This document shows, one piece after another, positions 11,004 through 46,205 of a stretch of 64,000 nt of DNA; the stretch's first letter is position 1, and every line of letters begins with the position of its first letter. Both the position numbers and the translations under genes were made by a program. The notes below the pieces were generated by a model, which saw only the letters and a program-made list of their open reading frames with translations, ran no database searches and was not told the origin of the DNA. The DNA comes from Acidobacteriota bacterium (lineage in GTDB: Bacteria > Acidobacteriota > Terriglobia > Terriglobales > SCQP01). The stretch is from assembly GCA_027459505.1 (NCBI GenBank), contig DAIDIE010000018.1, positions 83,571-147,570 on the forward strand. Direction: 5' to 3'.

Positions 11004-11315
11004 ACAATGCGTGGAGCGGTTGCCGGGCATTTGACCCGGCGGTTGTGGGTTCTGGACCACCCAAACCCATTGTAGCGAAGGCACTTGATGCCAATTGGGG
11101 CGAGCGGCTTGCAGCGACGTGGAAGGCGGGCCGTCTTTAGCGAGGGCGCTAGGAATTTCTCCTGTAGCGCGGGCGAAAAGCTGCCGATACAATGTGTGTC
11201 TCTGTTTTTCAGGATGAACTAAGGAACCCCGGGGACCCGAATGTGAGCGGGCGAGAAGCTGGGGGCATTGGGACTGAGAGGACGGAGGTGTCTCCGCCCG
11301 GGCAGGCAAGCAGCC
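11004..11315. other. Divergent promoter region between antiterminator and polysaccharide cluster
   Basis: About 312 bp hold an inverted repeat GCCGGG-N7-CCCGGC around 11024-11042 and a second one, CGGAG-GTGT-CTCCG, at 11283-11296, only 20 bp before the first cluster gene. TACAAT boxes occur on both strands (about 11068-11073 minus, 11188-11193 plus) without good -35 elements. An antiterminator recruitment site would be expected in the leader, but none is recognisable. Confidence 0.4.
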
Positions 11316-12830
11316 ATGAAAAGCTTATTCGCAGCGGCCATTATTGCGTACCTGATATCCCTGCTGCTGACACGGCTGGTGCGCGATCTGGCCATCCGGC
11401 ACCGCTGGCTGGACCGGCCCGGAGGGCGGCATGTGCACAAGGTGCCGACGCCGCGGCTGGGAGGAGTGGCCGTCTGGCTTTCGGTTCTGCTGTCGTTAGT
11501 CATCCTGCGCGGGTGGGAGGACTTGAGCGGCCACTCGGCGCAGATCAGCGTGTTCACCCTGTGGCGCATTGCGTTGCCGGGAACGCTGCTGTTCGCGGTG
11601 GGGTTGTGGGACGACCTGAGAGAGATCCGCCCGCTTTACAAGCTGGGGGCGCAGGCCGCGGCTGGAGGACTGCTATGGCTGCTGGGGGTGCGTGTGCGCG
11701 TGCTTACATGGGAGCAGCCACACCAGGCGGTGGTGTTGCCCGGGCAGGGAAGCCCCAACCTGGCCGAGCCGATCAGCCTTGCTGTGACGGTTTTCTGGGT
11801 CTTGCTTTGTGTCAATGCGCTCAACCTGGTGGACGGCATTGACGGTTTGGCGGGCGGGGTTGGAGCGATCGCCTGCGGCACGCTGGCATTGACCGCCTAC
11901 ACTTCCGGGAACGTGCTGCTTACCAGTCTGATGCTGGTTATGGTGGGCGCCCTGCTTGGGTTTTTGAAGTTTAATTTCAATCCGGCGAGCATTTTCCTGG
12001 GTGACGGAGGCAGCCTGTTTACCGGCTTTGTGCTGGCCGCCTCGGGCGTTTTGTGGTCGCAAAAGCAGGCGGCGTTTTTAGCACTGAGCGTGCCGATGCT
12101 GGTTCTGACCGTGCCGATGCTGGAGGTAGCGCTGACGGTGGCGCGGCGATCACTGGGCCGCAAACCGCTGTTTACCGCCGACGCGCAGCACGTTCACCAT
12201 CGTTTACTGCAGCAGGGTGCGACGCCCAAGCGGGCCGCCCTGAGCCTGTACGTACTGGCTTCCGGCGCCGGAGCGATGGCCTATGCCATTGCGCATGGCA
12301 GCCGGGTGCTGTTGGTGGTGGCGCCCGCGGGAGTGGTGGCGGTGTTGCTGTGGATACGCAGTCTGCGCTATCCGGAGCTTACGGAACTGGTTTACGTGCT
12401 GTCGCACGCGCTGCCGCGGCGTGAGCTGCTGGACGTCTTCATCCGCCTGCATCGCGCCACCCTACAGGCCGCCGCCGCGCCCGACCTGCCGCACCTGTGG
12501 GGCGCGCTGGGAGAGATCGGAACGTTGCTGAAGGCGAACGACACAAATACCTGGATCACGATGCGCGCTACGCTGCGCATAGGGGAAAGCCACATGGAGC
12601 GCCATTGGGGATCGCCCAGCGAGCGGGCGCCGCGTTACGTGCTGGGCGAGGAGTACCTCGACAACAGCTGGACGGTGGAATTGTGGTGTTCGCGAAGGTC
12701 GGCGCTGGCGCGGCGCGGGGCACGGCTGATGCAGGTGAACTTCCGTAACCTGGCGCGCGGACTGGCGCAAATAGGGACGCCGGTGGAGGACGCTACAGGG
12801 CGCGCGTCCGCGGCAGGCCAGGTGAGCTGA
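11316..12830 (+). CDS. WecA/MraY-family polyprenyl-phosphate sugar-1-phosphate transferase with C-terminal extension
   Basis: This 504-residue membrane enzyme should start polysaccharide assembly by moving a HexNAc-1-phosphate from UDP onto undecaprenyl phosphate. Signature motifs are present: PTPRLGGVAVW (about 44-54), DD at 99-100, NLVDGIDGLAGG (170-181), FNFNPASIFLGDGGS (219-233) and HVHHRLL (292-298). After the last membrane helix near 350 a soluble C-terminal region of about 150 residues follows that is absent from standard WecA and contains no motif I know. The start ATG follows GGCAGGCAAGCAGCC; an upstream in-frame GTG region is not WecA-like. Confidence 0.88.
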   Translation: MKSLFAAAIIAYLISLLLTRLVRDLAIRHRWLDRPGGRHVHKVPTPRLGGVAVWLSVLLSLVILRGWEDLSGHSAQISVFTLWRIALPGTLLFAVGLWDDLREIRPLYKLGAQAAAGGLLWLLGVRVRVLTWEQPHQAVVLPGQGSPNLAEPISLAVTVFWVLLCVNALNLVDGIDGLAGGVGAIACGTLALTAYTSGNVLLTSLMLVMVGALLGFLKFNFNPASIFLGDGGSLFTGFVLAASGVLWSQKQAAFLALSVPMLVLTVPMLEVALTVARRSLGRKPLFTADAQHVHHRLLQQGATPKRAALSLYVLASGAGAMAYAIAHGSRVLLVVAPAGVVAVLLWIRSLRYPELTELVYVLSHALPRRELLDVFIRLHRATLQAAAAPDLPHLWGALGEIGTLLKANDTNTWITMRATLRIGESHMERHWGSPSERAPRYVLGEEYLDNSWTVELWCSRRSALARRGARLMQVNFRNLARGLAQIGTPVEDATGRASAAGQVS

Positions 12831-15193: not shown

Positions 15194-16543
15194 ATGGCGA
15201 TTGGGCTGGTATTGACGGCGCTGTGCACCTTGAGCGTTTTTGTGCTGGCGCGCCGGTCTCCGGGGCACGCCATGGGCGTGCTGTTGCTGGTGGGGGCCAA
15301 CATTGGCTACATCCGCGCTCACTACGCCACCAGCCTCACCATGTTCTTGTTTGATATTGGCTGTGTGAGCTTTTACGCGGGAGCGCTGCTATCGCCGCAG
15401 ATGCGCGCCCGGCTACACAACATTGGCGGGGCGCTGCCGCATTGGTTTTTCTGGTTGTGTGCGTGGCCGGCGCTGCTGTTGCTGGTGCCGACGCAGCCGT
15501 TTCTGGTGCGGCTGGTGGGCTTTCGGGACGCGATCTTCTATCTGCCGTTCTTGTTGGTGGGTTACGTCTTAACGCCGGAGGACAGAAGACAGCTTGCTAA
15601 GTGGCTGGCAGTGATTGTGCTTCTGGCGCTGGGAGAAGCATGGCTGGAAGTGCATTTCGGTTTGGCGGCATTGTTCCCGCCTATTCCCGTGGACTTCCTG
15701 ATCCTGGCTGCGCACGATGTGCATGTTGGACATCACCTGACGTATCGTATCCCGGCATTTTTCGTGGCTGCGGCGGTCTACGGCGAGTTTTGTGTGCTGA
15801 GCGTTCCGTTTCTGGTCGCTGCCGTCGTTGATAAGCAACGTTCGGCGAAAATGCGTCTGTTGGCGCTGCTCGCCTTGACCGCGTCGTTACTAGGCGTCTT
15901 ATATTGCGCCTCACGCTCGGATTTTTTGATCATGGCGGGCCTGCTGTTTACGGCTTTGCTGGTGGCGCGAATGCCGGTGCATTTCAAAGTGATGCTGGCC
16001 CTGCTGGCGCTGGCGGGGGGGCTCCTGATGCTTCGTACGCCCCGCTTTCAGCGCTCTCTAACACTTCAGAACACGGCTGCCGACCAGCGCCGAGTGCAGT
16101 TCAGCGTGAACCAATCCTTTATTGCTCTGTTAGAAAAGTATCCGATGGGGAACGGTTTGGGCGGTGGCGGGAGCAATATGCCGTCTTTTTTGCAACATGC
16201 AGTGCGGCATCGAGTGACGCTGGAAAATGAATACGCGCGAATCATGCTGGAACAGGGGATTCCGGGGCTGATTCTATGGTGTGCGTTTTTGCTGTACTTT
16301 TTCCTGCGCGGGCAGCCTTTCAAGGTCAGGCGTGAAAAGGCCGCAAATACCTTGGCCTACGCCTGCTGTGCGGCGCTGATTTTACAGGCGATGCTGGGAC
16401 TGGGACTCTATGAAACCACTCCTTCAGCGGCATTCCTGTTTTTGCTAATGGGCTGGTTGTTGCAGGGTGGCTCGGCACGAATATTCGAAGGACAAGAGGC
16501 GTGGACAGGACCGGAAAGGGTGATGCAGGTGGCCGGACGATGA
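15194..16543 (+). CDS. O-antigen polymerase/ligase-like membrane protein (Wzy/WaaL type)
   Basis: This 449-residue protein has about 10-12 transmembrane segments. The late periplasmic loop carries FSVNQSFIALLEKYPMGNGL and the typical TLENEYARIMLEQGIPGLIL, found in the Wzy_C domain of O-antigen ligases and polymerases. In a cluster with a flippase and initiating transferase, polymerisation of the repeat units is the simplest role. A ligase role cannot be excluded. Confidence 0.8.
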   Translation: MAIGLVLTALCTLSVFVLARRSPGHAMGVLLLVGANIGYIRAHYATSLTMFLFDIGCVSFYAGALLSPQMRARLHNIGGALPHWFFWLCAWPALLLLVPTQPFLVRLVGFRDAIFYLPFLLVGYVLTPEDRRQLAKWLAVIVLLALGEAWLEVHFGLAALFPPIPVDFLILAAHDVHVGHHLTYRIPAFFVAAAVYGEFCVLSVPFLVAAVVDKQRSAKMRLLALLALTASLLGVLYCASRSDFLIMAGLLFTALLVARMPVHFKVMLALLALAGGLLMLRTPRFQRSLTLQNTAADQRRVQFSVNQSFIALLEKYPMGNGLGGGGSNMPSFLQHAVRHRVTLENEYARIMLEQGIPGLILWCAFLLYFFLRGQPFKVRREKAANTLAYACCAALILQAMLGLGLYETTPSAAFLFLLMGWLLQGGSARIFEGQEAWTGPERVMQVAGR

Positions 16544-17616
16544 AGCTATTGCTACTTATTGGACCGGAGCCGGGCTGTTTGCGAGAAGCCTGCGAGCCCA
16601 TGCGCGCTCGTCTACTAGACCTGGGGTTTGATTGCCAGATGCACGTGGAGCCCCGCCGCTTTCCCTTACGATTGCCACAGGCGGATGTTGTTGTTCTGCA
16701 TTACACTCCTTTCACGCTTGGACTGAAGGGTCTGAATCTATTGTTTTGTTGGCGGCTGAGACACCTCATACGCGGTAGGCGGCTGTGGGTGATGTTCCAC
16801 GAGGTGCAGCGCCAGTTCAATGTTCATCACCGGCCGCAGGAATGGTTGCAAGCTCTGATTCACCGCTGGATGAAACGAACGTTGCTGGCGAGGGCCGACG
16901 AGGTGTTGCTCAGTACCAGTTCCTGGGCGGCCTTACTGCGTGGAACAACGGCGGAGCAGCGTCCAGCCTGGGTGGTCCCCTCCTATAGTCAGGTGGCGAC
17001 GGTAGCCAGGGTGGAGGAGGTGTGGCGTTTGCGGGCTCCGGCAGGAGAAGGGATGCTAGTGGGTCATTTCGGGACGCGGCATCACTCCACGGCCGCGCTA
17101 GTTCGGGAAATATCAGCTCGGTTGCTTGCCGGGGATAGAACTCTTCACATGCTGTTTATGGGCAGAGGAGCGAAGCTCTTTCAAGCGGAACTGTCGGAAC
17201 GGGACCCGCAGTGGAAGGGGCGCATACAAGCTCTGGATGACGCGGGTGCGGAGGAGGTGGCGGCCGGCATTGCCGCCTGCGACGTTATGCTGCAGCCTTA
17301 CGGTGACGGAGTGAACTGCCGGCGCGGCACACTTAGCGCGAGCCTGGCGCTCGGTGCCGCTGTGGTGAGCAACGCAGGACTATTGTCCGAGGAGTTCTGG
17401 ACGAGGGAGGACCTGCTGTTCCTAGCACCGGAGCCAAGTGTTGAGGCGCTGGTAGAAGCTTGCCGGACGGCTCTGTCCTCGCCTGAGCGGCGCCGAGAAA
17501 AAGGGCGGCGGGCGGGACAGTTTTATCAACGTTGGATGTCACTGGATAGCGCCGTAAAGACCTACGAAACACTCATCGCGCGCAGCGGTAGGACTGTTGA
17601 GGCAACCAGGGCATGA
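16540..17616 (+). CDS. Glycosyltransferase, GT4-like
   Basis: This 358-residue protein starts in an ATGA overlap (16540-16543) with the polymerase gene. The N-terminal half is a Rossmann-like start (MKLLLLIGPEPGC, then ADVVVLHYTPF) and the C-terminal half has the GT-B pattern VGHFGTRHHSTAAL, AACDVMLQPYGDG and ASLALGAAVVSNAG. The usual E-x7-E motif of GT4 is not intact, so it may belong to a divergent branch. Sugar specificity cannot be read. Confidence 0.75.
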   Translation: MKLLLLIGPEPGCLREACEPMRARLLDLGFDCQMHVEPRRFPLRLPQADVVVLHYTPFTLGLKGLNLLFCWRLRHLIRGRRLWVMFHEVQRQFNVHHRPQEWLQALIHRWMKRTLLARADEVLLSTSSWAALLRGTTAEQRPAWVVPSYSQVATVARVEEVWRLRAPAGEGMLVGHFGTRHHSTAALVREISARLLAGDRTLHMLFMGRGAKLFQAELSERDPQWKGRIQALDDAGAEEVAAGIAACDVMLQPYGDGVNCRRGTLSASLALGAAVVSNAGLLSEEFWTREDLLFLAPEPSVEALVEACRTALSSPERRREKGRRAGQFYQRWMSLDSAVKTYETLIARSGRTVEATRA

Positions 17617-18728
17617 GCCATTCAACGGTGGCCGCAGCCGCGGTTGCACGCCCTAGCGAGACGTTGTTGCCCAGTTCCGGGCGGTTGCCGTCGTTGGATG
17701 GCCTGCGCGCCACCTCTATTGCGATTGTGGTTTTGGCGCATTTAGTGAGTACTGGAGTTGTGCCGCTGCGGGCGGTAGGGAAGGCCGTGTTTGAGACGGT
17801 GACGGCCGGGGGTGAGTTGGGAGTATCGTTCTTCTTCGTGATCAGCGGGTTGTTGATCACACACCTTTTGCTGCGTGAGCAATCGCGTCACGGCGCGATC
17901 TCGGTGCGGAGCTTTTACTATCGCCGGGCTTTCCGGATTTTACCAGCGGCATATCTTTACATTGGCGCCGTATGGCTGCTGTCGCATTTGGGAGTCTTTG
18001 AAGTGCGGCCCGCGGAGTTTCGCAGCGCTCTGTTTTTTTATTGGGACTACGCCCGCTCTTCGAACGGGTTGATGTTGTTTCATCTTTGGTCGCTGAGTAT
18101 TGAAGAGCAGTTTTACCTGCTCTGGCCATGGCTGATTGTGCTGTGCGGGTCGCGGCAACGGCTGGTGAAAGTGTGCGTCTGGGCCTTTTGCGTCTGGCCC
18201 TTAGTGCGCGTTGTGGGCTATTTTGTACTGCCTGGCCTGCGGTCACGCGCAACTTATCTCTTTCATGTGCGGGCAGACTTGCTGATCTGCGGTGGACTAC
18301 TGGCCGCGCTGGGTTCCGACCCCAAGGGGAGTGCGATTTTGAAGCGCTGCCTACGTTACAGGCCTCATGTGTGGGGCGGGGTTTATCTGTTTGGACTTGA
18401 GCCGCTGCTGATGTATTGTTTCGGCGCGCGCTTCAGCTTTCCGATTGGCTACTCTCTGGAGGCGGTGGCCATAGGAGCAATCGCCTTATGGGCAATCACC
18501 GCGTGGGACCGGCAATGGCTGGCACGATTGCTGAACCTGCGTGTGGTGGCGCATCTCGGCGCGATTTCCTACAGCCTTTACCTGTGGCAGCAGTTGGTGA
18601 TCTTTCGCGGGGCCCAGTATGGACTGCGCTGGACGATTCCGCTGCTGATCGTGGCGGCGGCGGAGTTATCTTATTGGGGAATTGAGCAGCCATTTCTGCG
18701 TTTGCGGGCACGGCTTGGTCTGGGCTAA
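17613..18728 (+). CDS. Acyltransferase 3 family membrane protein (OafA-like)
   Basis: This 371-residue protein has about ten hydrophobic helices and the hallmarks of this family: SLDGLRATSIAIVVLAHL at the N-terminus (His in the first helix), VSFFFVISGLLITHLLLRE and FHLWSLSIEEQFYLLWP. These enzymes O-acetylate or otherwise acylate sugars of surface polysaccharides. It overlaps the glycosyltransferase upstream by ATGA at 17613-17616. Confidence 0.92.
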   Translation: MSHSTVAAAAVARPSETLLPSSGRLPSLDGLRATSIAIVVLAHLVSTGVVPLRAVGKAVFETVTAGGELGVSFFFVISGLLITHLLLREQSRHGAISVRSFYYRRAFRILPAAYLYIGAVWLLSHLGVFEVRPAEFRSALFFYWDYARSSNGLMLFHLWSLSIEEQFYLLWPWLIVLCGSRQRLVKVCVWAFCVWPLVRVVGYFVLPGLRSRATYLFHVRADLLICGGLLAALGSDPKGSAILKRCLRYRPHVWGGVYLFGLEPLLMYCFGARFSFPIGYSLEAVAIGAIALWAITAWDRQWLARLLNLRVVAHLGAISYSLYLWQQLVIFRGAQYGLRWTIPLLIVAAAELSYWGIEQPFLRLRARLGLG

Positions 18729-18731: not shown

Positions 18732-19931
18732 ATGCAAGGGGAACCCCAGCAAGGGCAGCTTAGCGGCGCGACTGAGCGCAGTCTGATTTTGCTGGCGGCG
18801 GATTTCCCGCCTTCCACCGGCGGCATTCAGACCGCTACCTGGGAGCTGTACTCGCGATTGGCGCCGGAGATTCGCACGGTGGTGGCCCCTGGGCAGCCGG
18901 GGGCCGCTGCATGGGACCAGCGCAGTCCCCTGAAAATACAGCGATTAGCGGGCACATTGTCCATTCCGGGGATTGCGCGTTACTGGGCGAACGCACTCAC
19001 GCAGCTTTTGCGCAGCCACCCGAGAAAGTGCGTGGTGCATTGTAACCATCTGTTTGTGAGCCCAGTCGGGCTGTGGCTGAAACAATTGACGGGCACGCCG
19101 TACGTGGTATTCATTCACGTGGAAGAGCTGACGAATTGTCGCTTTCCCCGCCTGGCGCGGCGGCTCTTACAGCAGTCCGATGGCGTTATCGTGAACAGTC
19201 ATTACACCCAGGCCGCGGTGGAGCAGCTGATTGGGGCGGGGAGGCTGCCGATGCTGCGGGTTCATTTTGGAGCATCGGAACGGTGGTTGCGGCAGCCCGT
19301 TGTGTCACCCGCAACCTGGCGCCAACGGCTTGGGGTAGGGCAGCGGCCCATGCTGGTCACGATCAGCCGCTTGACAAAAGCGCATTCCTATAAGGGCGTG
19401 GACACCGCGATCCGCGCATTGCGGCGGTTGCATCAGGCCGGCGTGCAAGCGCAACTGGCGGTGATCGGGGAAGGCGCGGACCGGGAACGTCTGGAAGGGC
19501 TGGCAGAGGGCGAGGGAGTCAGCGCGGCAGTGCGTTTTCTGGGCCGTCTGCCGGATAATGATGCGATCGAGGTCGTCGATGCCGCTGACCTATGCTTGCT
19601 GCTCAGCCGCGAGGAGCGGACACAGAGGGGCGTGGTTGCGGAGGGCTTTGGGATTGCCGTACTGGAGGCGAACGCACGCGGCAAGGCGGTGGTGGCGGGC
19701 AAGTCCGGAGGGCTTACCGACGCGGTCGAGCAGGGTGTAAATGGCGTTCTGGTCGATTCCACTGATCCGGATGCGGTGGCGCGGGTGATTGCGGAAGTGC
19801 TGAGCGACCCCGAGCGGCGGCAACGTTTGGGTGCGAATGGTCAGCGGCGGCTGCAAAGCGAGTACAACTGGGACTTTGGCGCGCGGCAACTGCGAACGTT
19901 TCACCAGGAGATACTCTCGACTCGTGCCTGA
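18732..19931 (+). CDS. GT4 family glycosyltransferase
   Basis: This 399-residue GT-B protein has the acceptor-side start LILLAADFPPSTGGIQTATW, the donor-domain LVTISRLTKAHSYKGVDTAI and the E-x7-E motif region EGFGIAVLEANARGKAVVAG followed by GGLTDAVEQGVNG. It is a retaining, nucleotide-sugar-dependent enzyme of the cluster and follows the acyltransferase gene by 3 bp. Confidence 0.88.
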   Translation: MQGEPQQGQLSGATERSLILLAADFPPSTGGIQTATWELYSRLAPEIRTVVAPGQPGAAAWDQRSPLKIQRLAGTLSIPGIARYWANALTQLLRSHPRKCVVHCNHLFVSPVGLWLKQLTGTPYVVFIHVEELTNCRFPRLARRLLQQSDGVIVNSHYTQAAVEQLIGAGRLPMLRVHFGASERWLRQPVVSPATWRQRLGVGQRPMLVTISRLTKAHSYKGVDTAIRALRRLHQAGVQAQLAVIGEGADRERLEGLAEGEGVSAAVRFLGRLPDNDAIEVVDAADLCLLLSREERTQRGVVAEGFGIAVLEANARGKAVVAGKSGGLTDAVEQGVNGVLVDSTDPDAVARVIAEVLSDPERRQRLGANGQRRLQSEYNWDFGARQLRTFHQEILSTRA

Positions 19932-21138
19932 GCGGACGCCAGCGCCGGCCTTGGTGCGCGAGGCTCTTTATCTGAGCGTCAGCGGGCAGTTGGGGGGCGC
20001 CGAGCGCTGCTTGTTGTCGATGTTGGAAGGCCTCACGGCGCGGGGTTGGAGCTGCGCGGTGGTGGTGGCCGGTCCCGGACCCTTGCCGGACAGTCTGCGG
20101 GGGCTGGGGGTGGAGGCGATTGCGCTGCCGATGCCGGAAGAATTATTGCGCCAGACACGCTCTTCCCGCCAGCCCTGGAGTGCCTACATCCGCGGAGCGG
20201 GCGCGGCGACCCGCTATTATTGGCTGCTGCGTCAATATTTAGCCTCGCGACGGCCGGCGGTGCTGCACAGCAACGGCCTCAAGATGCACCTCCTGACCGC
20301 ACTGCTGCCGGCCAGGCTACGCCGCTCGCTGGTTTGGCACCTGCACGATTTTCCACCCGCTGGAATGGCAGGAAGGCTGCTCGGCGTCGCGAGCCGACGG
20401 GCGCGACTGCTGATCGCCAATTCAAGCGCCGTGCGCCAGGCCTGGCTGGTTCGCTATCCGCGATTGGAAGGAAGAATTGAGGTCGTCCACAACGCGGTGT
20501 CGGCGCCGTCCATCGACGTGGACAGGGCGGGCGCGGCGTTCCGGCAAGAGCATGGGTTAGCCCCCCATGCATTTTTGGCGGGCATGGTTGCGGTGCTGGC
20601 GCCTTGGAAAGGGCATGAGGTCTTCCTGGAGGCCGCACGGCTGGTGCACGCCCGTGATCCGGAAGTGCGCTTTGCAATCATCGGCGGTGACGTGTACGAC
20701 ACGGCGGGGCATGGCGGGCGGCGCGAGGCATTACAGCGCATGTGCGCACGCTTGGGCCTCAATGAAATAGTGACCTTTATCGGCTTTCAATCGGAAGGGG
20801 TGGAGGCCGCTTACTGCGCGCTGGATGTTTTGGTGCACGCCTCCACCAAACCCGAGCCGTTCGGCAGGACCATTATCGAAGCCATGGCGGTTGGCCGCCC
20901 TGTTATTGCCGCCAATGCCGGCGGGGTACCAGAGATCGTGCGCGAGGGGGTTGACGGCCTTTTAACTCCATCGCGCGACGCAGAGGCATTGGCGGAGGCC
21001 ATCTTGCGCCTGGCTCATCGGCCTGTTCTGCGTCAATCGCTGAGTCATTCAGGTTTAGAGCGTGTGCGGTCGATGTTTTCGATAACGGAGCAGACCCGGA
21101 GGTTGGAGGAGATTTACCTACGGTTGCAGGAAGGTTGA
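19924..21138 (+). CDS. GT4 family glycosyltransferase (GTG start)
   Basis: This 404-residue protein starts at a GTG (VPERTPAPALVREALYLS) that overlaps the previous stop by 8 nt; AGGAG lies 13 nt upstream. A longer in-frame start inside the previous gene is not protein-like. Donor-domain motifs are GMVAVLAPWKGHEVFLEA and FGRTIIEAMAVGRPVIAANA (E-x7-E type) followed by GGVPEIVREGVDG. Specificity is unknown. Confidence 0.88.
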   Translation: MPERTPAPALVREALYLSVSGQLGGAERCLLSMLEGLTARGWSCAVVVAGPGPLPDSLRGLGVEAIALPMPEELLRQTRSSRQPWSAYIRGAGAATRYYWLLRQYLASRRPAVLHSNGLKMHLLTALLPARLRRSLVWHLHDFPPAGMAGRLLGVASRRARLLIANSSAVRQAWLVRYPRLEGRIEVVHNAVSAPSIDVDRAGAAFRQEHGLAPHAFLAGMVAVLAPWKGHEVFLEAARLVHARDPEVRFAIIGGDVYDTAGHGGRREALQRMCARLGLNEIVTFIGFQSEGVEAAYCALDVLVHASTKPEPFGRTIIEAMAVGRPVIAANAGGVPEIVREGVDGLLTPSRDAEALAEAILRLAHRPVLRQSLSHSGLERVRSMFSITEQTRRLEEIYLRLQEG

Positions 21139-21142
21139 TATT

Positions 21143-22342
21143 TTGAAGATCTGTCACTTAGGCAAGTTCTACCCCCCGGCGCGCGGTGGTGTGGAGACGC
21201 AGGTGCAGATTCTCGCGCGCGGGCAAGCCGCCTTGGGCGCCGAAGTCAGCGTGGTGTGCGTGAACCACCTCGACACCCAAGGCCGCGACGTGACGTGGCG
21301 GAGTCTTGGACAGAGCTCTAGCCAAACCGACCGCGATCACGGGGTCACGGTTTATAGGTTGGGAAAGCTGGCCTCCTTTCAACGGCTTGAGGTTTGCCCA
21401 GGACTGCCGGGATTGATTCGCCGTCTGGCGCGCGATCCGGAGATGATCTTTCATCTTCATGTTCCCAATGTCTCGATGCTGCTGACCGCGGCCACATGTA
21501 TTCCAGCCCGCAATCCGATCTTTGTTGGCTATCACAGCGATATTCTGCGGCAGAAGGTGCTGCTCTATGCGTTGCGGCCGTTTCAGCGCGCGGTGTTCCG
21601 GCGGGCGAAGGCGATCTTTCCAACCAGCGAAGCGTATGCGCAGGCGTCACGAGTGTTGGCGCCGTACCGGCAAAAGCTGAAGGTGCTGCCGCTGGGTTTG
21701 GAGTTAGAAACGTTTGACCAACCGCCAGCGGAGGTTCGCGAGCAGGCCGCGCGGATGCGGCGGGAGTTGGATGGGCCTATCTGGCTGTGCGTGGGTCGAT
21801 TGATCTATTACAAAGCATTGGACGTGGCATTGCGCGCGCTGGTGCAGGTCCCGGGGACGTTGTTGGTCGTGGGGACGGGTCCGTTGCGGCAGGAATTGCA
21901 GAAATTGGCGGAGCGTCTGGGCGTGGCCGGACGGGTGAGATGGATGGGCAATGCCAGCCAAGTGGAATTGCAGGCCGCCTACCGGGCGGCAACGGCGTTT
22001 TGGCTGACCAGCAACGAGCGCACCGAGGCCTTTGGCGTAGTGCAATTGGAGGCGATGGCAAGCGGCTGCCCGGTAATCAACACGGCGATTCCAGGCTCGG
22101 GGGTTGCGTCGGTCAGCCTTCATATGCAGACCGGTTTGACAGTCAACCCAGGCGACCCAGGGGCATTTGCGGATGCGGCACTGCAACTTCTCGACAATGA
22201 GGAGTTGCGCCAGAAGATGTCTCTGGCCGGGCCGGCGCGGGTAGCGCAGTATTATTCCAGCCGCGCCGTTGCCGGGCAGAGTCTGGCCTATTACGGAAGC
22301 GACTCGGCAACGGAAGCCCGTGTGCGGGCGGCTCGGGCATAG
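21143..22342 (+). CDS. GT4 family glycosyltransferase (TTG start)
   Basis: This 399-residue protein begins with TTG in the context AGGAAGG-TTGATAT-TTTG, giving MKICHLGKFYPPARGGVETQ. Other motifs are VGYHSDILRQK, WLCVGRLIYYKALDVAL and EAFGVVQLEAMASGCPVIN followed by IPGSGVASVSLHMQTGL. This last pattern is common in O-antigen mannosyl- or rhamnosyl-transferases, but the donor is not proven. It follows the previous gene by 4 bp. Confidence 0.87.
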   Translation: MKICHLGKFYPPARGGVETQVQILARGQAALGAEVSVVCVNHLDTQGRDVTWRSLGQSSSQTDRDHGVTVYRLGKLASFQRLEVCPGLPGLIRRLARDPEMIFHLHVPNVSMLLTAATCIPARNPIFVGYHSDILRQKVLLYALRPFQRAVFRRAKAIFPTSEAYAQASRVLAPYRQKLKVLPLGLELETFDQPPAEVREQAARMRRELDGPIWLCVGRLIYYKALDVALRALVQVPGTLLVVGTGPLRQELQKLAERLGVAGRVRWMGNASQVELQAAYRAATAFWLTSNERTEAFGVVQLEAMASGCPVINTAIPGSGVASVSLHMQTGLTVNPGDPGAFADAALQLLDNEELRQKMSLAGPARVAQYYSSRAVAGQSLAYYGSDSATEARVRAARA

Positions 22343-22379
22343 CGAGCGTTTTTCTCCGGCACAGCTTGAACCGGTAAAC

Positions 22380-23669
22380 ATGAGAACGGGCGCCTCGAAA
22401 TTCAGAGCCGGTTCCGGCCAGGGTGGCTATCTGCTCTCGCACCCCGCATACAACGTGAATACGTTGCAGACGGCGCTGGCGCTGGACGAGGCGCGGCTTT
22501 TGAAGGAATTCTGGACGACTCTGTCGGCGCCATCTGTATTGCGTCTGCTGCCATTGCCGGCGGGAGTGGCGGCACGTGTTTCGCGACGCCAGGCGCCAGC
22601 CCTTAGCGCGGGGGTTGTGCGAACCCACGCCAGGTACGAGCTTGCGCGCGTGGCTATGCGAATGCTGGGAATCGCCAAGGCCGGGTCGTCAGAATGGGTG
22701 GACGCGGTGGTGCGCAACTTCGACGCTCACGTTTCCAGGCGACTGCGGCAGGAGATCTTTGAGGGGGTTTACGCCTACGAAGATTGTGCGGATCAGAGCT
22801 TTTCGGTGGCACGGGAGAGGGGCAGCCGCACGGTCTACGAACTGCCGATAGGATATTGGAAACAGTTGCGGCAGGTGGCGGGAGAAGAGGCCCGGGCGGT
22901 GCCCGAGTATGCGGGCACCTTCCGGACTGGACCTGAGGAGGGCGCCGGCAAGCTGGCGCGTAAGGACCGGGAGTTGGAAAAAGCGGACGTTGTGATCGTC
23001 CCCAGCCGTTTTGTGGCTGCCAGCCTGCCGCGGGAAGTATGGCCGCGGGTTGTGCGAGTTCCCTATGGCGCCCCGCCGCCAATCATGGAAGCGGCGCTAG
23101 CTTATAACTATGATCGCCCTCTGCGAGCGCTTTACGTGGGGGCTCTCACGCAGCGCAAGGGGCTGTCATACCTGATCGACGCATTTCACCGCCTGTCCGG
23201 AAAATGCGAGTTGACGCTGGTGGGCCGCGTGGTGGGCTCATCCGCCGCGCTGGCAAGGGAACTGGCACGCCATCGCTGGTTTCCCACCGCTTCGCGGCAG
23301 GATGTGTTGCGATTGATGCGTGAACACGATGTCTTCGTCTTTCCCACGCTGTTCGAGGGCCGGGCGCTGGTCAACCTGGAGGCGCTGTCGCAGGGCTTGC
23401 CGATCATCACCACAGAAAGCTCGGGCATTGATGAAACCCTGCAAGACGGGGTGAACGGCATCCGGATACCGGAGCGCTCCAGCCAAGCAATTCGCGAGGC
23501 CATTGAGAAGCTTTCGGACGACCGGGAACTTCTAGCCCGCATGAAACGGGAGGCGCTGCGGTCCGCGGGAGCCTGCAGTTGGGCGCGGTACCGCGAGGAA
23601 TTGCTGCGGGCGCTGACGACTACTGCGCCAGCGGTCACTTCGATCAATGAAGTCAGTGGCGGCGCATGA
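22380..23669 (+). CDS. GT4 family glycosyltransferase
   Basis: This 429-residue protein is more divergent at its N-terminus (SGQGGYLLSHPAYNVNTL) but has a clear donor domain: LRALYVGALTQRKGLSYLID, VFVFPTLFEGRALVNLEALS with QGLPIITTESSGIDETLQDG. The ATG at 22380 is preferred because the upstream in-frame segment is not similar to glycosyltransferases; it lacks a strong ribosome binding site. It overlaps the next gene by ATGA. Confidence 0.85.
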   Translation: MRTGASKFRAGSGQGGYLLSHPAYNVNTLQTALALDEARLLKEFWTTLSAPSVLRLLPLPAGVAARVSRRQAPALSAGVVRTHARYELARVAMRMLGIAKAGSSEWVDAVVRNFDAHVSRRLRQEIFEGVYAYEDCADQSFSVARERGSRTVYELPIGYWKQLRQVAGEEARAVPEYAGTFRTGPEEGAGKLARKDRELEKADVVIVPSRFVAASLPREVWPRVVRVPYGAPPPIMEAALAYNYDRPLRALYVGALTQRKGLSYLIDAFHRLSGKCELTLVGRVVGSSAALARELARHRWFPTASRQDVLRLMREHDVFVFPTLFEGRALVNLEALSQGLPIITTESSGIDETLQDGVNGIRIPERSSQAIREAIEKLSDDRELLARMKREALRSAGACSWARYREELLRALTTTAPAVTSINEVSGGA

Positions 23670-24805
23670 GAATCCTGACTATCGGCCATTCGTATGTGGT
23701 CCGGCAGAACCGGAGTTTGGCCCGGGCCATCGCAGACGCGGGTGGTGGGAATGTGGAGTTGACCTGTGCCGCGCCAGAAACCTACCCCGGCGACCTGCGT
23801 GTCATTGCATGTGAAGCCGCGGCGCCGGGCGAGCCGGAGCTGATTACGATCCCGGTGGTAGGAGGACGCTCCCAGGGCGCCCACACGCTGTGGTACTCGA
23901 AATTGAAAAAGCGTCTGCCGGCGACGCGCTGGGATCTGGTGCATGTCTGGGAGGAGCCGTTCACCTTGCCCGGTTGGCAGATCGCGCGTGCCTTTGCCGA
24001 TCATTGTCCAGTCGTCATCAGCACCTTTCAGAATATCGTCAAACGCTATCCGCCGCCTTTCAACTATTTTGACCGGGACACGCTGGGGCGCAGCGCGGCG
24101 TGGATCGCGCTTTCGCAATCGGTGCACGACTGCCTGCGGCAACGCGAGTACTATCGCCGGCGGCCGTCGCGAATTCTCCCCATGGGGACCGACGCGGATC
24201 ACTTTTGTCCATCGCCGGAGAGGCGGCGGACCAAGCGGGCGCAACTGTGCTGGGAAGAAAGCGATCCGGTGGTTGGCTACCTGGGCCGCTTTGTGGAAGA
24301 GAAGGGGATCAACGTCCTGCTCGCTGCGCTGGAGAGCGTGCAAGGGCCTTGGCGGGCGCTGTTTGTGGGCGGTGGCCCGATGGAAGAGCGATTGCGCCGC
24401 TGGGGACAAAACTGGCCCGGCAGGGTCGTGGTTCAAACGGGGGTGGTTCATGATGAGGTCCCCGGTTTTCTCAATGCGATGGACATATTGTGTGCGCCCA
24501 GCTTGACGACGGCGCATTGGAGAGAGCAGTTTGGCCGCATGTTGATCGAGGCCATGGCTTGCGGCGTTGCTGTGATTGGCAGTGATTCCGGTGAGATCCC
24601 CAATGTGCTGGCGGGGGCCGGACGCGTCGTTCACGAGGGCGATGCGGCAGCATTGGCGACAGCCATTGAAGAACTGTTGGATAAACCTGAAGAGCGAGCC
24701 CGGCTGGCGCTGCTGGGGCGCAGGGCAGTGGAAGAGAAATACTCCTGGACGCGGGTCGGACAGCGGAATTTGGAATTTTTCCGCCAGTTGGGGGGCGGCG
24801 AGTGA
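23666..24805 (+). CDS. GT4 family glycosyltransferase
   Basis: This 379-residue protein starts MRILTIGHSYVVRQNRSLAR within an ATGA overlap. Motifs are WDLVHVWEEPFTLPGW, VVGYLGRFVEEKGINVLLAA, FGRMLIEAMACGVAVIGSDS and GEIPNVLAGAGRV, as in GT4 enzymes that resemble WcaI/ExpC-like proteins. It is the last of the six glycosyltransferases and overlaps the next gene by 4 nt (GTGA). Confidence 0.87.
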   Translation: MRILTIGHSYVVRQNRSLARAIADAGGGNVELTCAAPETYPGDLRVIACEAAAPGEPELITIPVVGGRSQGAHTLWYSKLKKRLPATRWDLVHVWEEPFTLPGWQIARAFADHCPVVISTFQNIVKRYPPPFNYFDRDTLGRSAAWIALSQSVHDCLRQREYYRRRPSRILPMGTDADHFCPSPERRRTKRAQLCWEESDPVVGYLGRFVEEKGINVLLAALESVQGPWRALFVGGGPMEERLRRWGQNWPGRVVVQTGVVHDEVPGFLNAMDILCAPSLTTAHWREQFGRMLIEAMACGVAVIGSDSGEIPNVLAGAGRVVHEGDAAALATAIEELLDKPEERARLALLGRRAVEEKYSWTRVGQRNLEFFRQLGGGE

Positions 24806-25407
24806 AAAAGACGATCGGGTTTTTGCTTTTGGTGGCGGTGGCTATCGGCGTGCGCGCCTGGATTCGCGCCTACCGTGCTCAATACGTGGCGGGCTGGGCG
24901 CGCGGAGAGCTCATGCGAAACGCTTTGCCTCAGCAGGTTGGCCAGTATCGTCTCGTGCAGAGCTGGAACCAGTACATCCAGGACGGACGCGACGCCACCG
25001 GGTTTTATCATGTGGCGGGGATGCCGGGGGGAATCGATCTTGCGCTGGGATTGGGCGCGCGCGCTCAGCATCTCTGGTATGAGAGCCTGCTGCTTGGTCA
25101 CGGCAAACCGCGGCAAGATGGCATTGAACTGCTGCCTACCTCTTCCGGCGCGGTGGCCTTCGAGGTTTCCCAGGTAGGTTTCGACAATGGGCGAGTGGAC
25201 AGCCTGGCGGAGACGAAGTGTATTGCGGGGCGGTGTGATATCCGTCCCTCCCACCTGTTTTGGTTGCGCCTGCTGCACCCCTTGACCGCTCCCGTTTCCC
25301 TGGTGGTTTACCAGAGCGTTTCCGCTGGTTCGATGCCGAGCGCAAGTACCCACGAGGTCACACAATTTGTCGCGCAACTGAATCCAGGCGCGCTGACGAA
25401 TCGCTAG
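24802..25407 (+). CDS. Membrane-anchored protein of unknown function, first of a duplicated pair
   Basis: This 201-residue protein starts at GTG within a GTGA overlap with the last glycosyltransferase. It has an N-terminal signal anchor (TIGFLLLVAVAIGVRAWI) and an extracytoplasmic domain. It shares with the next gene H-x-W-x2-S-LLL-x2-G (from H90), D-S-x-A-E-T-x-C-x-A-G-x-C-D-x-R (C140, C145) and a PVSLVV strand near the C-terminus. The size, anchor and position at the end of a polysaccharide operon recall EpsI/DUF3485 proteins that accompany exosortases, but the match is weak and I do not claim it. Confidence 0.7.
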   Translation: MKKTIGFLLLVAVAIGVRAWIRAYRAQYVAGWARGELMRNALPQQVGQYRLVQSWNQYIQDGRDATGFYHVAGMPGGIDLALGLGARAQHLWYESLLLGHGKPRQDGIELLPTSSGAVAFEVSQVGFDNGRVDSLAETKCIAGRCDIRPSHLFWLRLLHPLTAPVSLVVYQSVSAGSMPSASTHEVTQFVAQLNPGALTNR

Positions 25408-25461
25408 GCGACCGGAAATGCATTGGAGCGACCGCGCCAGGGGCTGGTCGGGCGGGACCTC

Positions 25462-26082
25462 ATGAAAAAACGAGCGGCAATCTTCCTCTTGCTGTTAGTC
25501 GCGGCACTGGCGATGCGGCTGGCATTGCGACGGCCGCAAAGCCTGCAGGCGCTGGCTCGACAAGTGCAACAACCCGGCCGCTTGCCGGAGGCGATTGGCT
25601 GCTTGCGGTTGGCCTGGGTGCAAGGTGGTATGGTGAGTGACCCGGGAAAGTCGGTCGCCTCGCCCGAGTTTAGCAGCCTGTATTCGTGTTCCAGCAAGAA
25701 TACCTACGTGCGCCTGATTCTTGGTTTTGGATGGCGCGGGGATCACATGTGGTCCCACAGTCTTTTGCTCCATGGCGGGCAACTGCTTTCAGAGCATGAG
25801 TTGCGACTGCCCACACGGGAGGGGCTCACCTGGTTTGACGTGGCGCTGGTGCGTAATCCTGATGGAAGCGTTGACTCGGTCGCCGAGACTGAATGCTTAG
25901 CGGGCGCTTGCGATATGCGCGCGGTTCCAGATTTTATGCGGCGCTGGGTGCATCCAGCTTCTCAGCCCGTGTCGCTGGTCGTTGATGAATCCTTTGCGGC
26001 GGACCAGCAAGCGTCCACGCAAGCGATTGAAGGGTTCGTGAGCCAGTTGTCTCCGCGCAGGCTGACGAGTTTTTGGCAGTGA
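25462..26082 (+). CDS. Membrane-anchored protein of unknown function, second of a duplicated pair
   Basis: This 206-residue paralogue of the preceding gene starts MKKRAAIFLLLLVAALAMRL, giving a clear signal anchor. Shared positions are H95-x-W97 with S100-LLL, the paired cysteines C145 and C150 in ETECLAGACD, and PVSLVV at about 178. The region between the anchor and the first motif differs most and contains extra cysteines (C47, C76). The two proteins probably form a hetero-oligomer or diverged after duplication. An upstream in-frame start at 25423 is less likely, as it would precede the anchor with a charged segment. Confidence 0.7.
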   Translation: MKKRAAIFLLLLVAALAMRLALRRPQSLQALARQVQQPGRLPEAIGCLRLAWVQGGMVSDPGKSVASPEFSSLYSCSSKNTYVRLILGFGWRGDHMWSHSLLLHGGQLLSEHELRLPTREGLTWFDVALVRNPDGSVDSVAETECLAGACDMRAVPDFMRRWVHPASQPVSLVVDESFAADQQASTQAIEGFVSQLSPRRLTSFWQ

Positions 26083-26206: not shown

Positions 26207-26521
26207 ATGAAACGCGCGGTGATTTTTATTTTTTTCTCGCTTTGCCTTAGTGCGGCAGCGACTCCTGTTCGCCACAGTGGCGGTTCGCCGGCTGCTGGAG
26301 GCCGAGGTTGGGATCCCTTAGGCGGGGGCGGGGCGCCGGTGCATCACGAGCGCAAGAGCATGTCCCAAGGCGGCAATGGCGGGCAGTGCGGCGGAGGCGG
26401 CGGTGGTGGTAAGGGAAACCCGCATGCGTCGCCGGAGAACCCGGCTTGGGTGCTGGCCTTACTGGCAGCGGCGGCCTGGGGCTGGCAGGTGCGGGGGAAG
26501 CGGAACCTCGTCCGCAGTTAG
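26207..26521 (+). CDS. Small secreted Gly-rich protein with SPENP C-terminal sorting-like signal
   Basis: This 104-residue protein starts MKRAVIFIFFSLCLSAAA, a signal peptide. The mature part is Gly-rich with one cysteine in CGGGGGGGKGN (61-71). The end has the tripartite layout of a PEP-CTERM-type sorting signal: SPENP (75-79), a hydrophobic helix AWVLALLAAAAWGW, then RGKR. The motif is a PE-x-P variant. It would be processed by an exosortase, but none is encoded in this window. The nearby polysaccharide cluster fits, since exosortase systems usually accompany exopolysaccharide loci. Confidence 0.65.
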   Translation: MKRAVIFIFFSLCLSAAATPVRHSGGSPAAGGRGWDPLGGGGAPVHHERKSMSQGGNGGQCGGGGGGGKGNPHASPENPAWVLALLAAAAWGWQVRGKRNLVRS

Positions 26522-26665
26522 CACACTGTGCGCAAGACAAGCGGGGCGATGGGCCGCGGGACACTGTTTGCAGGAAGGCGAGCCTCTTACTCTCGCAGTC
26601 GTTTTAAAAAATTCTAGAAATCTTGTTGGCGTCGAGCAACTCTAAACGCAGCATATCGCATCGAA

Positions 26666-26682
26666 CTATCACCTTGTGATAG
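26666..26682. promoter_or_regulatory. Inverted repeat CTATCAC-CTT-GTGATAG
   Basis: Perfect 7-bp arms with a 3-bp spacer lie 58 bp before the second small secreted gene. GATAGA inside it could also serve as a poor -10. It looks like an operator, regulator unknown. Confidence 0.35.
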
Positions 26683-26696
26683 ACGCGGCTCCACTA

Positions 26697-26714
26697 CGCC
26701 TCAACGTTGAGGCG
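26697..26714. promoter_or_regulatory. Perfect 18-bp palindrome CGCCTCAACGTTGAGGCG
   Basis: The two 9-bp arms are exact reverse complements. One arm (GTTGAGGCG) is repeated at 26121-26129 upstream of the other small secreted gene, at a similar distance from its start codon. This suggests a shared dimeric regulator for the two putative sorting substrates. Confidence 0.45.
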
Positions 26715-26740
26715 CGTGACTGCTGCCAGAGGGGGGACGG

Positions 26741-27022
26741 ATGCGATTGCGAAGGGCGTTTGTGTTGGTTTTGCCGCTTTCGATTGTCCTAGTAGGCATG
26801 ACTCCGCAGGATTGGGGCGCGCCGGCGCATCGGAATCCGTTTGCCGGGGCGGGCTTCGGTTCAGGTGTTCAACACCGCTCGGTGCAGTTGAAAAAGCCAA
26901 AAGGCTGCAAGAAGAACTCCCCGGAAGATCCCACGGTGGTGCTGGGGCTGCTGGCGGCTGGCGCCGTTGCCTTGGCAAGTCGCAAGCAGCGGCTGGAGTT
27001 AGGCGAAGAAGGGCAGCACTGA
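26741..27022 (+). CDS. Small secreted protein with SPEDP C-terminal sorting-like signal
   Basis: This 93-residue protein has a signal peptide (MRLRRAFVLVLPLSIVLVG) and a short basic mature part with HRSVQLKKPKGCKKN. The end repeats the layout of the other small protein: SPEDP (60-64), TVVLGLLAAGAVALA, then RKQR. Aligned, the two read SPE[ND]P-x-x-V-L-x-LLAA-x-A. I recall PE-x-P-T-type CTERM signals being reported for acidobacterial exosortase substrates, but could not verify that. A tail of nine residues after the basic cluster is unusual. Confidence 0.65.
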   Translation: MRLRRAFVLVLPLSIVLVGMTPQDWGAPAHRNPFAGAGFGSGVQHRSVQLKKPKGCKKNSPEDPTVVLGLLAAGAVALASRKQRLELGEEGQH

Positions 27023-27172: not shown

Positions 27173-27204
27173 AACGGGGCCGCACCCAAGGGTGCGGCCC
27201 CGTT
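27173..27204. terminator. Perfect 15-bp hairpin upstream of dnaE
   Basis: Arms at 27173-27187 and 27190-27204 are exact reverse complements, rich in G and C, separated by AA (a 4-nt loop once the inner pair opens). No U-tract follows on the plus strand, so it may be a non-canonical terminator for the upstream small gene or an RNA end-protection structure. Confidence 0.5.
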
Positions 27205-38618: not shown

Positions 38619-39044
38619 CTAGAAACGATCGACGGCCCCCGCTGAGGTGCGCACAATTCTCACGTAGGCCCAATAGGAAGCAGAAGCGCACAGAGCCAGT
38701 GCAAACATCACCTCATCGATTCCGCTACTGAGCGGATAAAAGGCCAGGTGCGGCCAATCCAGGATCGCGAAAATGAGCCAGCGCGCTGCAATGCAAGCAA
38801 GAATTGCGTAGAAGCCGGTACGTGGTTTCCAGACGTAAAGCACAAACAGTGGAAAAGCGGCCAAGGGAATCAAGGCGACTGCGAGTGCGGAGGGGCCGAA
38901 CGATCGTCCGCCCCAGAATCCGAGCGTCATCCAGCCAAAGAAGGACACCACCAAGGACCCGGCAAGCGCGAGCAGCGCAAACGACCAGTGGGTGATGCGA
39001 AGGGCGACTTCCATGAAGGCAGCGCCGCGCTTTGACACGGACAA
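38619..39044 (-). CDS. Small four-helix membrane protein of unknown function
   Basis: This 141-residue protein has about four transmembrane segments (FALLALAGSLVVSFFGWM, ALAVALIPLAAFPLFVLYVW, FYAILACIAARWLIFAI, VMFALALCASASYWAYV). A TTG start at 39044 is supported by AGGAGG 10 nt upstream; a GTG two codons in or ATG at 39014 are alternatives. It lies 62 bp after nuoN on the same strand but shows no link to complex I. Confidence 0.65.
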   Translation of the reverse strand: MSVSKRGAAFMEVALRITHWSFALLALAGSLVVSFFGWMTLGFWGGRSFGPSALAVALIPLAAFPLFVLYVWKPRTGFYAILACIAARWLIFAILDWPHLAFYPLSSGIDEVMFALALCASASYWAYVRIVRTSAGAVDRF

Positions 39045-39105
39045 GCTCGAGTACCCTCCTGGACGGAATCATCGGACCGCGAACGAGGAGCTCCAGTGGG
39101 GGCGT

Positions 39106-40563
39106 TTACCTTCCCGTCAGCGCCCCCGCGGAGTGGACAACGAAGTTCAGCAGGCTGTTCGGCGCAATGCCCAGCCAGAGGACGCCCACCGCACAGGCCA
39201 CCATCGCGACGTTCATGCTCAATGAGCGTTGCGGCTGAGAGACCTCCACGGTTGCGGGACGCATGTAGAGGAAGGCGATGACGCGCAGGTAGTAATAAGC
39301 CGCCAGAGCGCTGTTGAGCAGGCCGACAATGGCCAGGCCGACGAGGTGGTTCTGGAAGGCGGCTTTGAAGATAAACAGCTTGCCCAGGAAGCCGCCGGTG
39401 AGGGGAATGCCGATCAACGACAGCATGCAGATGGTCAGACAAACCGACTGCAGGGGAAAACGGAAGCCCAGGCCGGCGTAGTCGTGCAGATCGATGAAGC
39501 GTTCATTTTGCTGGGCCAGGTTGGAGATCACCGCGAAGGCGCCCAGATTCATGGCCACGTAGCAGGCCAGGTAAAACATGGCGGCTGAGATGCCGTGTTC
39601 GCCGAGTGCGGCGAAGGCGACCAGTACGTAACCGGCATGGGCGATGGAGGAGTAGGCCAGCATGCGCTTCATGTTGGTCTGGCGCAGCGCGCCCAGATTA
39701 CCGAGGCACATGGAGAGGATGGCCGCGACCCAGATCATCCAGAACCAGGTATGGCTGTAGCGGCCTAAGGCGACATAGAAAATGCGGAGAAAAACCGCAA
39801 AGGTGGCGGCTTTGGGGCCAGCCGACATAAAGGCGGTAACGGCTACCGGCGCGCCTTCATAGACATCCGGGGTCCAGACCTGGAAGGGAGCGGCGGAGAC
39901 TTTAAAGGCCAGTCCGACAAACATCAGCGCGGCTGCCACCAGGATCAAGCTGCCGTGTCCGGCCAAAACGTCGGAAAGACTGCGGGCAATCACGTAGAGG
40001 TTGGTGGAACCGGAAGCACCGTAGGTGAGGGCAATCCCATACAGAAAAAACGCGGTGGCGAAGGAGCCTAGCAGCAGGTATTTCAAGGCGGCTTCGCTGG
40101 AGCGCGCCGAGGCACGCCAGAATCCGCAGAGGGCGTAGCTGCAGATGGAGGAGATCTCCAGGCCGATGAAGACCATGATCAGCTCGACCGAGCCCGCCAT
40201 CAGGCACATGCCCACGGTAGCGAACAAGAGCAGGGCGTAGAACTCGCCGCGCTGCAGCCGCTGCGCGCGCAAGTACCCAATCGACAGCAGCAGGACTATG
40301 AGGGTGGCGGCGATGATGAGCCCGTGAAAGAAAAGGCTGAATCCATCCACCCGGAACATACCGGAAAAAGCTTCACCACGGTGAGCGGACTGCACCGCGA
40401 CTGAAGCCAGGGCGGCAGCGGTTCCAATCAAAGCGACCGTGCCGGACAGGGCGGCGCGGCTGCCGAGACGGGCGCCACCCTCGATGAGCATGATGAGCAC
40501 CGCGGTGGCGGTGAGCACCAGTTCGGGGAGAATGCGCAGGTAGTAGTCGGCGGGGACGTGCAT
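39106..40563 (-). CDS. nuoN: NADH-quinone oxidoreductase subunit N
   Basis: This 485-residue antiporter-like proton channel of complex I has about 14 transmembrane helices. Family motifs include FIGLEISSICSYALCGFWR, APFQVWTPDVYEGAPVAVTA and MKRMLAYSSIAHAGYVLVA. It starts MHVPADYYLRILPELVL in a TAATG overlap with nuoM and is the last gene of the cluster. Confidence 0.95.
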   Translation of the reverse strand: MHVPADYYLRILPELVLTATAVLIMLIEGGARLGSRAALSGTVALIGTAAALASVAVQSAHRGEAFSGMFRVDGFSLFFHGLIIAATLIVLLLSIGYLRAQRLQRGEFYALLLFATVGMCLMAGSVELIMVFIGLEISSICSYALCGFWRASARSSEAALKYLLLGSFATAFFLYGIALTYGASGSTNLYVIARSLSDVLAGHGSLILVAAALMFVGLAFKVSAAPFQVWTPDVYEGAPVAVTAFMSAGPKAATFAVFLRIFYVALGRYSHTWFWMIWVAAILSMCLGNLGALRQTNMKRMLAYSSIAHAGYVLVAFAALGEHGISAAMFYLACYVAMNLGAFAVISNLAQQNERFIDLHDYAGLGFRFPLQSVCLTICMLSLIGIPLTGGFLGKLFIFKAAFQNHLVGLAIVGLLNSALAAYYYLRVIAFLYMRPATVEVSQPQRSLSMNVAMVACAVGVLWLGIAPNSLLNFVVHSAGALTGR

Positions 40564-42107: not shown

Positions 42108-42180
42108 ACAATTTCGTGCAAACCCGGTAACAAGACCGGACCCGGGCTTTTCACGCCCAAGTCAAAACGGCCGGGGGCGG

Positions 42181-44157
<1,977 letters not shown>

Positions 44158-46202: not shown

Positions 46203-46205
46203 CGC

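Follow-up and report, generated by a model that had tools for sequence, protein, structure and literature searches.

Several described sorting systems resemble the one reported here. The exosortase J/PExPT-CTERM systems: these are represented in NCBIfam by TIGR04199 and TIGR04200 and occur in Granulicella, Edaphobacter, Bryocella and related Acidobacteriaceae. They share with our locus an XrtJ-like core, a C-terminal domain with a His and a C-x4-C motif, and tiny Cys-bearing substrates that end in SPE[ND]P, a helix and a basic tail. The EpsH/EpsI PEP-CTERM systems (TIGR02602, TIGR02914, TIGR02595): these likewise feature an exosortase and a partner in a polysaccharide context. The EpsI partner can be fused to the exosortase or encoded adjacent to it, and in the accessible text of the 2006 description it has no known function (PMC1569441). 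The Flavobacterium XrtF systems. These are comparable, by description and not by sequence, in coupling a variant exosortase to a separate neighbouring partner; according to the accessible part of the source, XrtF needs this adjacent protein and has a role in biofilms (PMC12188702). The MYXO-CTERM/myxosortase systems. As far as the available text describes them, their substrates also have a Cys near the sorting motif, a helix and a basic tail (PMC11980579). Unlike in a split XrtJ system, the myxosortase is a CPBP-type intramembrane protease. In the open-access literature (CC0, CC BY and CC BY-SA) we found no experimental description of exosortase J and no mention of PExPT-CTERM: exosortase searched together with Granulicella returned nothing, and exosortase J or XrtJ matched tomography papers only.

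The locus described here lies in a 64,000-nucleotide stretch (the window) of contig C1 of an Acidobacteriota genome, and encodes two tiny proteins, P1 and P2, preceded by two homologues of the XrtJ C-terminal domain, CTD1 and CTD2 (Table 1). It is of the XrtJ/PExPT kind already present in NCBIfam, as a divergent relative in an unusual arrangement. We consider it probable that P1 and P2 are the substrates of a split and divergent system of the XrtJ/PExPT type that serves exopolysaccharide, with its core on contig C35 and CTD1 and CTD2 as the partner.

Table 1. Features of the window around the tiny protein genes, with positions counted from the first letter of the window
Feature	Positions	Strand	Evidence
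Glycosyl transferase family 4 (initiating sugar transferase type), cluster start	11268..12830	+	PF00953 8.4e-37
Polymerase/ligase-like membrane protein	15194..16543	+	PF04932 Wzy_C 3.7e-05, 24 bits, below cut-off 31.7
Cluster acyltransferase	17613..18728	+	PF01757 2.6e-20
Five consecutive glycosyltransferases	18732..24805	+	PF00534 1.3e-27 to 7.6e-38
CTD1, stand-alone homologue of exosortase J C-terminal domain	24802..25407	+	TIGR04199 positions 304-449
CTD2, second homologue, C-x4-C	25459..26082	+	BLASTP to CTD1 4e-32
P1, 104 aa	26207..26521	+	ORF and TIGR04200 match E 8e-05
P2, 93 aa	26741..27022	+	ORF and TIGR04200 match E 1.5e-08

Tiny proteins and partner-domain genes in the window

The genes for P1 and P2 directly follow CTD1 and CTD2, which in turn adjoin a sugar-polymer cluster. 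Its glycosyltransferase ORFs occupy 18732-19931, 19927-21138, 21143-22342, 22374-23669 and 23666-24805, and the last runs into CTD1, the start of which overlaps its stop. The CTD2 start codon is uncertain, the ORF opening at 25423. A large PAS-containing histidine kinase (6634-10404) lies just ahead of the cluster and is a possible regulator. On the 3' side of P2, a GC-rich inverted repeat at 27176-27201 (GGGGCCGCACCC/GGGTGCGGCCCC), with no T run after it, possibly marks the end of the transcript; a promoter and terminator scan gave nothing useful.

Both tiny ORFs have the layout claimed for them in a first-pass annotation of this DNA: a signal peptide, a short Gly- or Lys-rich part bearing a Cys, and a terminal SPE[ND]P, helix and basic tail. 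In P1 a signal peptide of about residues 1-18 is followed by a Gly-rich stretch with the lone mature Cys (residue 61, nt 26387-26389), the sorting signal SPENPA, which starts at residue 75, a hydrophobic helix and RGKR. In P2 the signal peptide covers about residues 1-27 (both were delimited by eye), and a Lys-rich stretch with the lone mature Cys (residue 56, nt 26906-26908) leads to SPEDPT, starting at residue 60, a hydrophobic helix and RKQR. The annotation had proposed a comparison with the NCBIfam CTERM models, and the nearest of these is TIGR04200 (PExPT-CTERM, exosortase J target), which gives 22.3 bits for P1 and 34.2 bits for P2, both below its curated cut-off of 40. The PExPT layout is visible in the two proteins with departures: P1 has Ala for Thr, and the Cys stands at -5 from PE in P2 and at -15 in P1 instead of -4. 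The canonical PEP-CTERM profile TIGR02595 reaches 12.3 bits with P2, below its cut-off of 16, and does not match P1; neither protein matches MYXO-CTERM among the NCBIfam profiles, or any Pfam family.

The same annotation had suggested looking for further proteins with this ending, and the genome has two, on contigs C44 and C24 (20.4 and 17.6 bits with TIGR04200, both below the 40-bit cut-off), each ending in SPENPTGVLA with one Cys nearby. A profile of the own-family tiny proteins (A2; nine rows, among them all four own-genome proteins, self-matches thus being expected) retrieves from this genome, up to E 1, precisely P1, P2 and the C44 and C24 proteins. Short low-complexity sequences with sub-cut-off scores might resemble sorting substrates by chance, in which case P1 and P2 would be small one-helix membrane or secreted proteins. 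This we regard as exceedingly improbable: the ending recurs on four proteins of one genome, tandem counterparts occupy the matching locus of two relatives, and genes for XrtJ-specific domains adjoin P1 and P2. Chance resemblance of the tails was set aside on the profile E-values and the tandem counterparts.

The first-pass annotation had also stated that no exosortase is visible here. This holds for the catalytic core and fails for the remainder of the enzyme, since two homologues of the XrtJ C-terminal domain stand immediately upstream of the tiny genes. The TIGR04199 match of CTD1 is confined to the span given in Table 1 (E 2.5e-05; 22-23 bits). By itself CTD2 has no NCBIfam match; it is a diverged paralogue, 36-38% identical to CTD1, and a self-including CTD profile (A1) finds it at E 9.5e-76. 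In BLASTP, CTD1 matches the stand-alone partner genes of the family genomes G007 and G013 (2e-11 and 9e-11), to which CTD2 is homologous as well, and the C-terminus of one classical XrtJ (1.6e-05). Unlike the partners of the EpsH/EpsI systems, neither gene (at 24802 and 25459) matches the EpsI profile TIGR02914 up to E 10, and in alignment both lack the HSPxxC motif and have C-x4-C instead.

CTD1 consists of an N-terminal membrane helix followed by a soluble domain; in the AlphaFold2 model (mean pLDDT 85.6) the helix spans residues 2-33 and the domain is of mixed alpha/beta structure. In the secondary-structure string of this model, C140 and C145 flank a strand turn, one on either side. A full-length XrtJ (L202) is modelled as a helical core, a linker helix and a domain similar to CTD1 (pLDDT 83.1). 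Foldseek with the CTD1 model gave no match below E 0.001. VIA-align brought up SciW, Tsi3, Mog1 and LpqN at Z 7.7-7.9 (rmsd 3.3-4.0 over 105-127 residues), the top Z of 7.9 falling in the range which its note calls common and the comparison containing no EpsI model. These matches are only a hint that CTD1 may have a Mog1/PsbP-like fold.

The catalytic core and its companions in the family

Whether the genome encodes an exosortase at all had been put forward as a check, and two proteins exceed the TIGR04178 cut-off, one on C34 and one on C35. With these and the two additional SPENP proteins, neither of the outcomes that the annotation had named as refuting it is observed. The C35 enzyme (46.9 bits, cut-off 23) retains the Cys and Arg motifs, with CDGLR and NFGRL aligning with those of other exosortases. 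Its best match is exosortase J, at 111-113 bits against a cut-off of 200 and over positions 2-279 of 522; it lacks the XrtJ C-terminal domain and is not a full-length member of TIGR04199. A whole-genome search with TIGR04199 returns this core, the C-terminal part on C1 and, more weakly, a core on C34. The gene order on C35 is ligase-Wzc-exosortase-Wza, names that were read from the translations and find support only in BLASTP matches to the corresponding genes of relatives, and no CTD gene lies between core and Wza. After an Asp that is invariant in XrtJ-like cores (78/78 aligned XrtJ rows, repeat genes and end-cut proteins included), the C35 core has Ala where the others have His or Tyr.

A second system, located on C34 at 39000-48000 (L001, L178), contains an exosortase A (221.3 bits, cut-off 208) followed by an EpsI (145.7 bits, cut-off 42.8) and, about 8 kb off, an ordinary PEP-CTERM protein (TIGR02595, 25.8 bits, cut-off 16). 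With both enzyme and partner over cut-off, and with P2 weakly matching PEP-CTERM, it is conceivable that this XrtA-class exosortase serves P1 and P2 and that the CTD pair is a relic. We judge this highly unlikely because the C34 enzyme has its own EpsI and its own PEP-CTERM protein. Moreover, exosortases are found by TIGR04178 in all 14 genomes of the own family, and the tiny proteins only where an XrtJ-like core and CTD are present.

A split XrtJ-type system, as favoured here, is consistent with how its components are distributed among these genomes. An XrtJ-like core scoring above 100 bits is found in five of the 14, namely the source genome (G000), G007, G011, G013 and G025, and the CTD profile matches exactly the same five. 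Tiny proteins accompany them in four (A2 retrieves four in G000, two each in G007 and G011, and one in G013); the fifth, with none, is G025, which is 54% complete. In the nine family genomes without an XrtJ-like core, A2 gives nothing below E 0.019; its two weak rows outside the four genomes with tiny proteins, at E 0.019 and 0.15, have the look of chance matches. The genomes are few, and the counts ignore phylogeny. Both family profiles contain sequences that they re-find, G025 lying outside the CTD profile; hence, the weight of the co-occurrence rests on the absences elsewhere and on G025.

The gene order of the relatives is informative. In G007 and G011, where the core belongs to a convergent Wzc-core-CTD-Wza operon, tandem tiny genes at 2.5 to 4 kb from the core have this operon on one side and glycosyltransferases on the other; relatives of several glycosyltransferases of the window, matched by BLASTP, thus flank the tiny pair. 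In these two genomes and in G013 the CTD gene immediately adjoins the core gene on one side and the Wza gene on the other; in G013 core, CTD and Wza share one contig and the tiny gene is on another. The C35 genes in turn match the Wzc-core-Wza genes of all three by BLASTP. On these comparisons, a locus that G007 and G011 have in one piece seems to be divided in two in the source genome, where the CTD is present twice and lies with the substrates. This synteny argues for the link between tiny proteins and upstream operon proposed in the first-pass annotation, and the TIGR04200 and TIGR04199 matches give substance to its suggestion of variant exosortase substrates, which would be of an XrtJ/PExPT-like type. 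As the core (C35) and the CTD genes (C1) are on different contigs, with contig breaks leaving the distance between the loci out of the draft assembly, linkage gives no demonstration that they act together. In G011 the tandem tiny proteins (L100:4528-5456) are near-identical except for the stretch around the Cys, which suggests that the pair arose by a recent duplication and then changed there.

Classical XrtJ loci and the cysteines

Across 249 genomes of the order, TIGR04200 exceeds its cut-off in 50, TIGR04199 in 47 and both in 46 (a Fisher test of this overlap ignores phylogeny, and five weak TIGR04200 rows were omitted: G124, G111, the second of G119, G162 and G065), with a TIGR04200 gene at most 1 kb from 49 of the 63 XrtJ-type places. 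A scan of named genomes produced 64 XrtJ loci from Granulicella, Edaphobacter, Bryocella, Terracidiphilus and Acidobacteriaceae, with a few MAG titles naming other groups; 61 were readable, L203, L230 and L245 having no core ORF under the pattern used. A substrate lies within the fetched stretch in 50 of these 61, with Cys at -4 from PE in 49 and at -5 in one. Counted as distinct endings and not as genomes, 96 of 98 classical substrates from outside the own family have Cys at -4; the exceptions are one Cys at -5 and the substrate of G192, which has none. In 61 of the 98, exactly seven residues run from the Gln after leader AQ to PE, with the consensus AQ-x-G-C-x-[DN]-S-P-E-N-P-T. A classical substrate is hence nearly just a signal peptide and a sorting signal, and if the leader is cut before the Gln, the mature product would be of about 12 residues.

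Among 106 neighbours of XrtJ in L182-L244, 28 are NHL beta-propeller and 15 Omp85-type outer-membrane proteins, with few glycosyltransferases (five of the 61 loci were left out of this tally, and long neighbours were scanned over their last 320 residues only), which suggests that classical XrtJ serves the envelope in some way other than through polysaccharide. Since classical loci have such flanks and hardly any polysaccharide genes, the exopolysaccharide link is drawn from the own family only. Our system differs further from the classical one: the C-terminal domain is encoded apart from the core, on another contig and in two copies, the mature parts of the four substrates are longer and Gly/Lys-rich, the Cys is further from PE, the context is exopolysaccharide instead of NHL/Omp85, and the scores fall below the curated cut-offs.

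PExPT genes also occur apart from XrtJ. G166, with seven PExPT places, and G226, with one, have neither a TIGR04178 nor a CTD match, and in G068 one PExPT gene occurs with a single exosortase and no XrtJ match; PExPT tails can therefore exist without XrtJ. Some of the exosortase-less copies of G166 and G226 (L029, L107, L108, L135-L139) adjoin NHL-propeller genes. In 396 genomes of the phylum, with six candidates scored per genome, the CTD profile finds matches in 17, all from the own order. A candidate for a second stand-alone CTD beside a substrate, on contig C36 of G072 (L109:3170-4141), has an internal stop and was left uncounted; this PExPT gene with a CTD-like frame is apparently a decayed XrtJ locus that has lost its core. 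A lone fragment of the XrtJ C-terminal domain in G137 (L103:5343-5969) has no adjacent core or substrate and lies beside transposase-like ORFs.

The partner domain is marked by three residues, H90, C140 and C145 in CTD1 numbering, which are invariant in 35/35 rows, of which two are the window copies and 33 are XrtJ proteins. A C-x4-C is present beyond residue 300 in 61/61 named XrtJ proteins and also in the stand-alone CTD genes of G007, G011, G013, G025 and G072. As a control, 16 EpsI proteins drawn from 26 exosortase loci have HSPxxC in 16/16 and any C-x4-C in 1/16. In G192, where the substrate is devoid of Cys, the partner is of the ordinary EpsI kind without C-x4-C; this joint absence ties substrate Cys to partner C-x4-C in a single case, as a hint and not a proof. 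The own-family endings have a Cys in 9/9 (again distinct endings), 5 to 15 residues ahead of PE, with -5 in P2 and -15 in P1.

This spacing also bears on the possibility that the conserved Cys is lipidated, as proposed for MYXO-CTERM, such that a small lipopeptide is made and the exosortase merely trims the tail. The near-constant -4 position in the classical substrates fits such a modification, and in Myxococcus, by the accessible text, lipidation of the invariant Cys is predicted, and replacements by Ala or Ser served to test whether cleavage requires this Cys (PMC11980579). Set against this are the variable position of the Cys in the own family, the absence of a MYXO-CTERM match for P1 and P2, the lack of any acyltransferase among the 25 commonest neighbour families of classical XrtJ loci, and the Cys-less substrate of G192; we consider lipidation unlikely. 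The cysteines may serve in disulphide exchange with C-x4-C, in lipidation or in cross-linking of the matrix.

A possible course of sorting and its meaning

The components of the split XrtJ-type system, their co-occurrence, their gene order and their conserved residues come from computation; the presentation by CTD, the cleavage, the acceptor, the exopolysaccharide role, the anchoring and the part played by the cysteine are what we infer in the following course. The tiny proteins would be exported by Sec, with signal peptidase taking off the leader, and P1 and P2 would be kept in the inner membrane by their C-terminal helix. The catalytic core would be the 8-TM-type exosortase of the C35 ligase-Wzc-Xrt-Wza locus, with its Cys and two Arg, and the partner domain, which in classical XrtJ is fused to the core, would here be made from the two CTD genes that precede P1 and P2. 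Through its membrane helix and periplasmic domain, the CTD partner may present P1 and P2 to the core, a role suggested by its adjoining the core or, as here, the substrates wherever it is separate. The core would then cleave at SPE[ND]P and hand over the resulting short peptide with its Cys, either to an acceptor in the exopolysaccharide pathway or to a lipid. Such cleavage and transfer are proposed by analogy with archaeosortase, for which the accessible part of the source proposes a thioester between active-site Cys and substrate that a lipid amine may resolve (PMC7157517). In floc-forming bacteria, so far as the available text goes, PEP-CTERM proteins have been linked to the retention of exopolysaccharide at the surface (PMC9850573, PMC12188702). 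Counting against a split XrtJ system are the sub-cut-off scores of every own-genome match to TIGR04200 and TIGR04199, the Ala at the His/Tyr position of the C35 core, and the genomes with PExPT genes but no XrtJ, G166, G226 and G068.

A bolder idea, which we hold to be rather doubtful, is that XrtJ-type systems make a small exported Cys peptide instead of anchored proteins. The CTD would be a thiol-handling or presenting subunit, its C-x4-C engaging the substrate Cys before or during transfer; in this genome the subunit would have come away from the enzyme and would travel with the substrates, such that one core could work with substrate-specific partners.

What would be new to a specialist is a split in which the partner sides with the substrates, together with the pairing of substrate Cys and C-x4-C (the NCBIfam descriptions lay outside this comparison). 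A natural split that leaves the partner with the substrates suggests that the partner recognises or prepares them, and divergent systems of this sort go unnamed under the profile cut-offs now in use. The products of classical XrtJ may be peptides instead of proteins and, if the thiol-handling role were true, exosortase chemistry would be gated by thiol-disulphide exchange.
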